A DNA stretch of 64,000 nucleotides from OCS116 cluster bacterium AG-435-F03 (lineage in GTDB: Bacteria; Pseudomonadota; Alphaproteobacteria; MED-G09). This document shows positions 37,215 to 40,207 of this stretch, in pieces. The DNA lies in NCBI GenBank assembly GCA_003212795.1, contig QCOV01000001.1, forward strand, positions 560,893-624,892, written 5' to 3'. Numbering within the stretch: the first letter of the stretch is position 1; every line of letters begins with the position of its first letter. Position numbers and translations under genes: made by a program. Below the pieces are notes generated by a model. The model searched no databases and was not told the origin of the DNA. It worked only from the letters and a program-made list of their open reading frames with translations.

Positions 37215-39158
37215 TTATTCTTCTAAATAACTTAATCCATGACCGTATCTAAAAATTGGATTTCTTGTGTCATCAGGAACATCCGAAAGTTGATCATTCA
37301 CTTCTTTCATAGATGAGGGGATATCAAAAGGAAGTTTTCCTGTTGGATTAAAATTACCAAAAATTACTTCTAATACAACTTCATCAAAAACACCAAAAAC
37401 ACCTATCAATCCATGGCTTAGTTTTTCAATTTCAGTAAGAATTGCTGGTCTGTTTAGGTCAACAACAATGATTAGTTTGCTCAATGAAGAATATTTTTTT
37501 AATTTAGATAAAATTTTCTCATCGTAATTCAAATCATTATTTGGAAATATAGTACTTAAAAAATTATCAATCGGCCTATCAATACCGGATGGCTGATTTC
37601 CATTAAAAACAGTTCGTAACTGAACAATGATATAATCAGAATCTTTAGGATCATTAGTAATTTCACAATATTTCTTTATTTCTTTCTTATCTAAACCATC
37701 AACAAAAATTTTAATATTTTTTTTAAGTGGTAAAATTTCTTTATTATTATCAATTTGATTTTTTAGTAACACTATTGATTTTTTTTGAGCGGTTAAACCT
37801 TTTTTTATAAAGGTCTCTGTTCCAACTCTTTTAGCAACTAAATTCTCATCAACGAAAGGATTGTCAAATAAACCTAACTCAAACTTGTTTATTAATATTT
37901 TTTTTACTGAATAATTAATCCTATCTTCAGATATTTCATTCTTTTTCACTAAATCAACAAGAAACTCAGGCGAGCTTTCGCCTCCATATTGATCTACACC
38001 TGCATCAATAGATTTCTTATATCTTTCTCTTAAGGTTAAGTCACCAACGCCCCAATGTCGTCCAGTTATTATGCCCCAATCAGTGCATATAACCCCATCA
38101 TATCCAAGTTTATCCCTTAATAAATGGGTTAAGATATCTTTATTATAAGCCATTGCAACATTTTCGGAAGTTTGATCAACTGGAATACCATAATATGGCA
38201 TAATGACCTTTAAATTATTATTAATAGCTCTCTTAAAAGGCTTTAAATGATATTCAAAATTATTTCCTGGATAGACTTGATTTTGTCCTGAGTATAGATG
38301 TGGGTCAAATCCTTCTTCCTGAGGACCTCCTCCAGGAAAATGTTTAACCATTGTTAAAACACTATTACTGTTAATCTTTTTGCCCTGAAAACCATCCATA
38401 TAAGCGATAGTAAAGTCTGAAGAAAGATCAGCATTTGAACCAAAAGTACCAAAATTTCTTGACCATCTTGGCTCAGTGGCAAGATCAGACATAGGATGCA
38501 AAGCTGTTCTTAAGCCGACAGATAGATACTCTTCTCTAGCTATTTCTGCAAATTCTTTAATTATTTCAGGTTGTCTAGTTGCAGCAAAACCTAATTGCGA
38601 TGGCCATTTTGAAAAGCCTTTTAATGAAAAAGCTGCCACACCTCCTCCTCGTGGCACCTCATGAATTGGATCAGAACTTATTGTTAAAGGAATACCTAAC
38701 CTAGATCTTTCGGCAATTTTCTGAAGTTGATTTATTTTTTTTGCTAATTGCGAAGGATTAGGTGAGCCGTATAAATTGTAATGTGTAATATTTTTGTTCA
38801 AAATTAATGATTCTGTTGTATCTCCTCTTCCGCTTGCTAGATTCATAATTTCAGAAATTGTACCACCATTAATAGAAATTGGAGGATGAAACATTTGTCC
38901 AGCCTTTTCTTCAATTGTCATTTTTTTTAATAAATCACTAGCTCTTTGTTCGGGGGTAAAATCAATGTTCTCATAAATTTCAATTTTGCCATTTTTATAG
39001 AGATCTCTATATACTTTATTATTCTTAATTATAGTTTTAGGTTTTTTATAAATTGAAAAATAAATTTTCAATTTAATATAAAATAATTTTGGAATATTTA
39101 GCGCTATCTTAAAAAGAATTTTTATTATGTCTAAAAAATTATTTCTAAATAATTTCAT
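37215..39158 (-). CDS. glycoside hydrolase family 3 (beta-glucosidase-like)
   Basis: ILTMVKHFPGGGPQEEGFDPH (KH..G motif), GYDGVICTDWG (catalytic Asp region), C-terminal GLSYLEE. Confidence 0.9.
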   Translation of the reverse strand: MKLFRNNFLDIIKILFKIALNIPKLFYIKLKIYFSIYKKPKTIIKNNKVYRDLYKNGKIEIYENIDFTPEQRASDLLKKMTIEEKAGQMFHPPISINGGTISEIMNLASGRGDTTESLILNKNITHYNLYGSPNPSQLAKKINQLQKIAERSRLGIPLTISSDPIHEVPRGGGVAAFSLKGFSKWPSQLGFAATRQPEIIKEFAEIAREEYLSVGLRTALHPMSDLATEPRWSRNFGTFGSNADLSSDFTIAYMDGFQGKKINSNSVLTMVKHFPGGGPQEEGFDPHLYSGQNQVYPGNNFEYHLKPFKRAINNNLKVIMPYYGIPVDQTSENVAMAYNKDILTHLLRDKLGYDGVICTDWGIITGRHWGVGDLTLRERYKKSIDAGVDQYGGESSPEFLVDLVKKNEISEDRINYSVKKILINKFELGLFDNPFVDENLVAKRVGTETFIKKGLTAQKKSIVLLKNQIDNNKEILPLKKNIKIFVDGLDKKEIKKYCEITNDPKDSDYIIVQLRTVFNGNQPSGIDRPIDNFLSTIFPNNDLNYDEKILSKLKKYSSLSKLIIVVDLNRPAILTEIEKLSHGLIGVFGVFDEVVLEVIFGNFNPTGKLPFDIPSSMKEVNDQLSDVPDDTRNPIFRYGHGLSYLEE

Positions 39159-40074
39159 TTTTACAAACCTCTAAAGCTCCCATATAGCCTAAATCTTTCT
39201 CGTTTATTAAGAAAACAGGAATATTTGATAAATATTTATCCATCTTTTTACTTTCTTCAAAAATATTCCTAAATTCTGAAAAATCATTATCCTTTAATAA
39301 ACTTTTACTTAAAGATCCAGCTAGGTAAACACCTCCACTTGAACCAGTTATTAAAGCTGTATATTTTGCAAAAATGGCAAAAATCTTTATCAAAAGAATT
39401 TTAGTTTCATCACAAAAAGCGTCATCTGTTATATTATTTAGAATATCTTCATTACTGTATTTATGATCATAGTCTTGAGAGAGAAAACCATAGATATATG
39501 AAATACCTTTACCTGATAACAAATCCTCAAAAGTAGCCATTCTTTTATTTTCTTTCTTAAAATCTTCTAATAAGTGTTGTATTTCATCACCCATGTTAGG
39601 AATATTAAGGTGCCCTGCTTCAGTAGCTATAGACTCCCCATTAATTAAAATTGATAACCCTAAGCCAGTTCCAGGAATAATTAATATCTTTGGTCCTTGT
39701 GGAAAATTTTTATTGCTTCCAATAAATTTTAATTTATTTTTAGGGTAATTATTAAGAGCATAACATTGCAATTGTACATCATTAAATAATCTTAAGCCTC
39801 TAGGAAAAAAACTTTTTTCCATTTCTTTTACATTAAAAGAAAAGTCTATATTAACAAAATTAATTTCATTACCAATAATTGGGGCAGCAACACCTAAAAC
39901 ACCTGAGAGATTTTCTTTAGAAATATTAAACTCATTTAAATAATGATTAAGAAGATCACCAAGGGTTTTAAAGTTACTAATTTTATATGAAGATTTATAA
40001 ACTAAATCTTTGAAATCATTTACGATTGCTAACCTTGCGTTTGTTGCACCTAGATCTGCTATTAAAGTATTAAT
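39145..40074 (-). CDS. glk: glucokinase, extended relative to the ORF track with a probable ATT start
   Basis: Translation upstream of the listed ORF continues without stops as (M)NTLIADLGATNARLAIVNDFKDLVYKSSYKISNF...LSGVLGVAAPIIGNEINFVNIDFSFNVKE-MEKSFF...; in-frame stop TAA precedes; GAGG 5 nt before ATT at 40074-40072; GTGLGLSILI and GSSGGVYLAG downstream. Confidence 0.85.
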   Translation of the reverse strand: MNTLIADLGATNARLAIVNDFKDLVYKSSYKISNFKTLGDLLNHYLNEFNISKENLSGVLGVAAPIIGNEINFVNIDFSFNVKEMEKSFFPRGLRLFNDVQLQCYALNNYPKNKLKFIGSNKNFPQGPKILIIPGTGLGLSILINGESIATEAGHLNIPNMGDEIQHLLEDFKKENKRMATFEDLLSGKGISYIYGFLSQDYDHKYSNEDILNNITDDAFCDETKILLIKIFAIFAKYTALITGSSGGVYLAGSLSKSLLKDNDFSEFRNIFEESKKMDKYLSNIPVFLINEKDLGYMGALEVCKNEII

Positions 40075-40207
40075 TTTTTCCTCAAATTGTTAGAAAATAT
40101 AATTATTTAATATTTATTATATACGAAATTGAGAGATGATATAAATAACTTATTCTTAGATTTTTTATAAGGAATCGGTATAATGGAAGAGTAATTTGGT
40201 ATTTGTT

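Follow-up and report, generated by a model that had tools for sequence, protein, structure and literature searches.

The glk gene of the window, i.e. of the whole 64,000-nucleotide stretch of DNA from OCS116 cluster bacterium AG-435-F03 analysed here, is in all probability an intact glucokinase gene that truly starts at an ATT codon, replaced by ATA in a second genus, with initiation being weak and a low or IF3-tuned output being selected. The following features of the locus are relevant:

39145..40074, minus strand: coding frame of glk (PF02685), 309 codons plus TAG when read from ATT; based on translation, Pfam, structure alignment and dN/dS
39147-39145, minus strand: TAG stop codon closing the glk frame; read from the sequence
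40072..40074, minus strand: ATT, proposed start codon of glk (ATA in the ortholog L006); based on the comparison of six genomes
40080..40083, minus strand: GAGG, Shine-Dalgarno-like, 5 nt upstream of ATT; invariant in six genomes and at the commonest GAGG spacing
40090..40092, minus strand: in-frame TAA, six codons upstream of ATT; from sequence and translation
40116..40145, minus strand: promoter-like TTTATA-18-TATAAT, 10/12 in a consensus scan, which would give a leader of ~35 nt; a weak candidate, as such hits occur in near chance number

Starting from the upstream stop codon, the frame reads TAA (40092-40090) CAA TTT GAG GAA AAA ATT (40074-40072) AAT ACT TTA, and its first canonical start codon is the ATG at 39822, which is located 84 codons past ATT. 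Between the upstream TAA and the glucokinase core, ATT is the sole near-cognate codon in the window. The coordinates and codons of glk, the upstream TAA, the ATT, the GAGG at 5 nt distance and the 84-codon extension are all as described in the original prediction. Its statement that no ATG, GTG or TTG is available holds for the glk frame; in addition, a different frame contains a TTG at 40085-40083. The product matches the Pfam Glucokinase profile with an E value of 6e-51 over positions 1-310 of 314, scoring 173.7 bits on PF02685 at a curated cut-off of 22.1, and it aligns from residue 4 with solved glucokinase structures of the E. coli type. In contrast, its scores are below the NCBIfam equivalog cut-offs (141.6 vs 225 bits for TIGR00749; 163.9 vs 383 for NF001416). 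Judged by these profile scores, the product has diverged within its fold family, and the equivalog cut-offs do not certify its exact substrate. Predicted RNA structure around the glk start revealed nothing unusual (z -0.91).

To assess conservation, we compared glk within a family of PS1-clade alphaproteobacteria. A first search of 61 genomes yielded close orthologs in five other genomes of this family, four from the same genus (95, 88, 83 and 70% identity) and one from another genus (L006; 54%), giving six genomes from two genera with the source included. The motif GAGGAAAAA-AT is invariant across the six genomes and GAGGAAAAAAT is identical in all of them, the start codon being ATT in the five genomes of one genus and ATA in the single genome of the other. 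That is, the box composed of GAGG, five A residues and ATT or ATA varies exclusively at the third base of the start codon. The 51 bases upstream of this box have an ungapped identity to the window of 47% in L005 and 39% in L006, the two most distant orthologs, and both of them retain the box, L006 deviating solely in the last base of its start codon. As five of the six genomes belong to one genus, in which four of five are 92-96% identical to each other just upstream of glk, independent evidence is provided mainly by L005 and L006. In none of the six genomes is an in-frame ATG, GTG or TTG present upstream of the conserved DLGATNAR motif. Alignment of the orthologs, suggested originally as a check, thus uncovers none with a nearby in-frame ATG, and the objection that a conserved ATG might exist fails. 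Of the more distant glucokinases examined from alphaproteobacteria, nearly all possess a canonical start codon in frame and shortly upstream of their matched core; the weak glk start is hence derived in the PS1-clade lineage.

The same comparison bears on the idea that a local mutation, an assembly error or pseudogene formation is responsible, the true start having been lost or mis-sequenced. ATT is one substitution away from ATG, and MAGs and single-cell genomes do contain errors. However, the same sequence is present in five same-genus genomes, which were assembled separately and comprise both MAG and single-cell-type records, and ATA occupies the position in the other genus; the frame itself is intact and under purifying selection. 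On the basis of the orthologs and the dN/dS values, we rejected an error or a pseudogene, including the read-level indel considered originally, and regard this as the least probable of all readings.

A standard ORF finder reports the form starting at 39822, which raises the question whether a truncated protein of 225 amino acids, made from this internal canonical start, represents the real product. This protein would lose the N-terminal phosphate-binding motif DLGATNAR, which is found in homologs. Moreover, codons 2-88 are under purifying selection, with dN/dS values of 0.18-0.30 as compared to 0.17-0.29 for the other 221 codons, and this similarity indicates that translation and selection also extend to the part of glk that precedes the listed ORF. 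The first canonical codon after the upstream stop is located at frame codon 89 in the window, whereas the genomes compared with it have theirs at codons 63, 64, 23 and 33. Since these positions differ between genomes, no internal glk start is conserved. The dN/dS values and the unshared positions led us to reject the internal start at 39822, which is very improbable.

For the spacing and strength of the putative ribosome binding site, 343 start codons of the source genome served as reference. They were anchored by comparison with G007, a cross-genus comparison that spans roughly half of G007, and comprise 302 ATG, 28 TTG and 13 GTG codons. A four-base Shine-Dalgarno sequence precedes 32% of them, and GAGG is most often positioned 5 nt from the start, as it is in glk. 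The Shine-Dalgarno sequence of glk consists of four bases only and is not extended, which speaks against the best explanation. Taken together, conservation among orthologs, a conserved and well-spaced Shine-Dalgarno sequence, purifying selection reaching up to the codon and the lack of a canonical in-frame alternative lend good support to the original proposal of an ATT start.

A further scenario makes use of an out-of-frame start codon. Two additional features have to be considered here:

40083..40085, minus strand: out-of-frame TTG; the 80 nt preceding ATT contain no other ATG, GTG or TTG, whatever the frame
40074..40079, minus strand: run of six A residues (A6) overlapping the glk start codon, a possible slippage site; read from the sequence

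In this case, translation would begin at an out-of-frame canonical codon and, a few codons later, enter the glk frame through a -1 frameshift at G_AAA_AAA or through transcript slippage on the A6 run. The reading frame of the TTG (40085-40083) continues with AGG AAA AAA TTA ATA CTT TAA; TTG AGG AAA AAA, with TTG at -11, occurs in each of the five same-genus genomes, and the A6 run does not vary among the glk genomes. L006 has an ATG at -41 instead, from which this frame stays open as far as AGG AAA AAA TAA. However, TTG is replaced in L006, and neither the TTG nor the L006 ATG is preceded by a Shine-Dalgarno sequence, whereas GAGG overlaps or follows the TTG and is placed for ATT. A6 runs are found in 657 of 731 genes and total 2478 as compared to 1865 after codon shuffling, i.e. 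they are not avoided; the same holds for in-frame G_AAA_AAA (136 against 124). With such sites being this common, efficient slippage at them would harm most genes. In the -1 frameshift of dnaX, the stimulatory Shine-Dalgarno sequence lies ~10 nt from the slip site, and GAGG is too near the slip site in glk to match this spacing. We therefore consider a shifted entry into glk improbable. The two routes would differ in their products: direct initiation at ATT would generate the N-terminus (M)NTLIADLGATNAR, whereas slippage would yield MRKKINTL.

How exceptional is the ATT start of glk in its genome? A genome-wide homology scan returned an excess of shadow and antisense ORFs; it was filtered and then replaced by a coding-potential scan for ORFs whose codon-usage signal runs well upstream of the first ATG, GTG or TTG, which covered 1,434,853 of 1,444,043 bases. 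Seven ORFs passed, three of which run off contig ends. The remaining four are glk, which obtained the top score, infC (ATA start), prfB (frameshift) and an ORF following rpmG (ATA start). As infC is the textbook case of a non-canonical start and prfB that of a programmed +1 frameshift, their recovery indicates that the scan works. The top score genome-wide, together with recurrence in six genomes, places the glk feature beyond chance, and the count shows such starts to be very rare in the source genome. The prfB gene, which served as positive control (own genome, C1:298720 region, plus strand), displays the usual frameshift arrangement with a GGIFDWD frame lacking a start. In the source genus, infC begins with GGAGATAAATCT-ATA (own locus L046), and its start is ATA throughout the family as well as in most other alphaproteobacteria examined (loci L036-L049). 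Thus, the translation machinery of the PS1 family uses AUH starts.

The fourth hit is located outside the window:

G000:C1:422072-422743, minus strand: ORF directly after rpmG (L227; relatives L228-L240)

In the five same-genus genomes holding this ORF, ~65 codons lack a canonical start, and likewise in the other genus. In the same genus, its ATA resides within AAAATAAG and overlaps the rpmG stop codon as ATAA. The ATAA overlap recurs in similar form in several genomes of genus g2, whereas other g2 genomes have ATG. Judged by this overlap, the arrangement looks like termination-reinitiation at ATA. Inspection by eye revealed motifs reminiscent of HAD phosphatases (ADADEV, LTN, IDD); no Pfam family was retrieved for this ORF, even at an E value of 10.

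Downstream, glk is adjoined in all six genomes by a gene of glycoside hydrolase family 3:

37215..39158, minus strand: GH family 3 gene (beta-glucosidase-like; Pfam Glyco_hydro_3, 3e-43), whose start overlaps the end of glk by 14 nt

The overlap amounts to 14-20 nt across the genus, and the two genes are 5 nt apart in L006. We infer from this arrangement that translation of the glucosidase gene may be coupled to that of glk. Neither gene was found in those genomes of the sister genus g2 that were searched, and the pair is likewise absent from two same-genus genomes, which are incomplete. Throughout the family genomes searched, glk and the GH3 gene thus occur jointly or not at all, which suggests a small cassette for the use of beta-glucosides.

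Mechanistically, a start at ATT or ATA could operate as follows. The 30S subunit would be positioned through pairing of GAGG with the anti-Shine-Dalgarno sequence, and the initiator tRNA (anticodon CAU, fMet) would pair with AUU or AUA at the first two bases, leaving a mismatch at the third. Owing to this mismatch, initiation would be weak and filtered by IF3, and glucokinase levels would be kept low, as perhaps would those of the GH3 beta-glucosidase via coupling to glk. In a survey of codon-anticodon pairs, IF3 was found to tolerate only Watson-Crick pairs at codon positions 1 and 2 and to select against weak pairing at position 3, AUU:CAU included (PMC10158994). That the start codon is one substitution away from ATG and yet is kept as ATT or ATA across two genera suggests selection for a low or IF3-tuned output. 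By analogy with AUU and AUA starts elsewhere, glk expression should be low. The idea of a low-expression start, voiced originally, holds up to the extent that it fits the efficiencies measured for these codons in other bacteria. The IF3 sensitivity considered originally follows from what is generally established for such codons and, indirectly, from the ATA start of infC in this clade; for glk, control by IF3 is plausible. A broader possibility, to which we assign a small chance, is that the PS1 clade employs initiation stringency as a regulatory channel comprising infC, glk (together with the GH3 gene) and the ORF after rpmG, with their ATA and ATT starts. If so, glucose phosphorylation would be matched to translational capacity through the ratio of IF3 to ribosomes.

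To our knowledge, few bacterial genes besides infC keep an AUU or AUA start by selection, and enzymes are fewer still. Within the limited collection of literature searched, no non-canonical start codon has been reported for any glucokinase. The glk start is conserved between genera with an exchange of ATT for ATA, and standard ORF calling misses it and lists a truncated glucokinase. For a streamlined bacterium of the ocean, it offers a directly testable connection of initiation fidelity with the use of sugars.

The paradigm for such starts is infC, encoding IF3, which starts with AUU in E. coli and with AUA in S. aureus; these codons are discriminated by IF3, weak initiation being their function. 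Like infC, glk has a conserved AUH start; however, infC autoregulates, whereas glk encodes an enzyme without direct feedback on IF3. In the pcnB gene of E. coli, an AUU start limits expression (Binns and Masters 2002, as cited in PMC13009471). The pcnB gene resembles glk in carrying AUU on a gene other than infC and differs in gene, lineage and experimental proof. In S. aureus, ribosome profiling and reporters identified AUH starts for ccpN (AUA), cvfC1 (AUU) and citZ (AUA); AUU and AUA reach ~10% of AUG in poor medium, and ccpN up to 30% in rich medium (PMC13009471). The starts of ccpN and cvfC1 are conserved among staphylococci, and ccpN and citZ act in central carbon metabolism (PMC13009471). 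These genes share the AUH start with glk but possess an extended Shine-Dalgarno sequence, whereas glk has GAGG only. The sigR gene of Streptomyces, whose GTC start was demonstrated to be repressed by IF3, parallels glk in its genus-wide non-canonical start with a variant third base (GTC/GTT), its conserved Shine-Dalgarno sequence and its misannotation (PMC5472188). It differs in that its start is GTC rather than ATH and in that IF3 control is demonstrated, whereas such control is a plausible prediction for glk. A metabolic enzyme is also encoded by pncA (BBE22) of Borrelia burgdorferi, for which an AUU start was proven biochemically and by crystal structure and for which, as for glk, an N-terminally truncated form was listed (PMC13398362). 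The pncA start was proven on the protein, whereas that of glk is deduced from genome comparison. By every sequence criterion tested, glk belongs with the genes that have a conserved AUH start.
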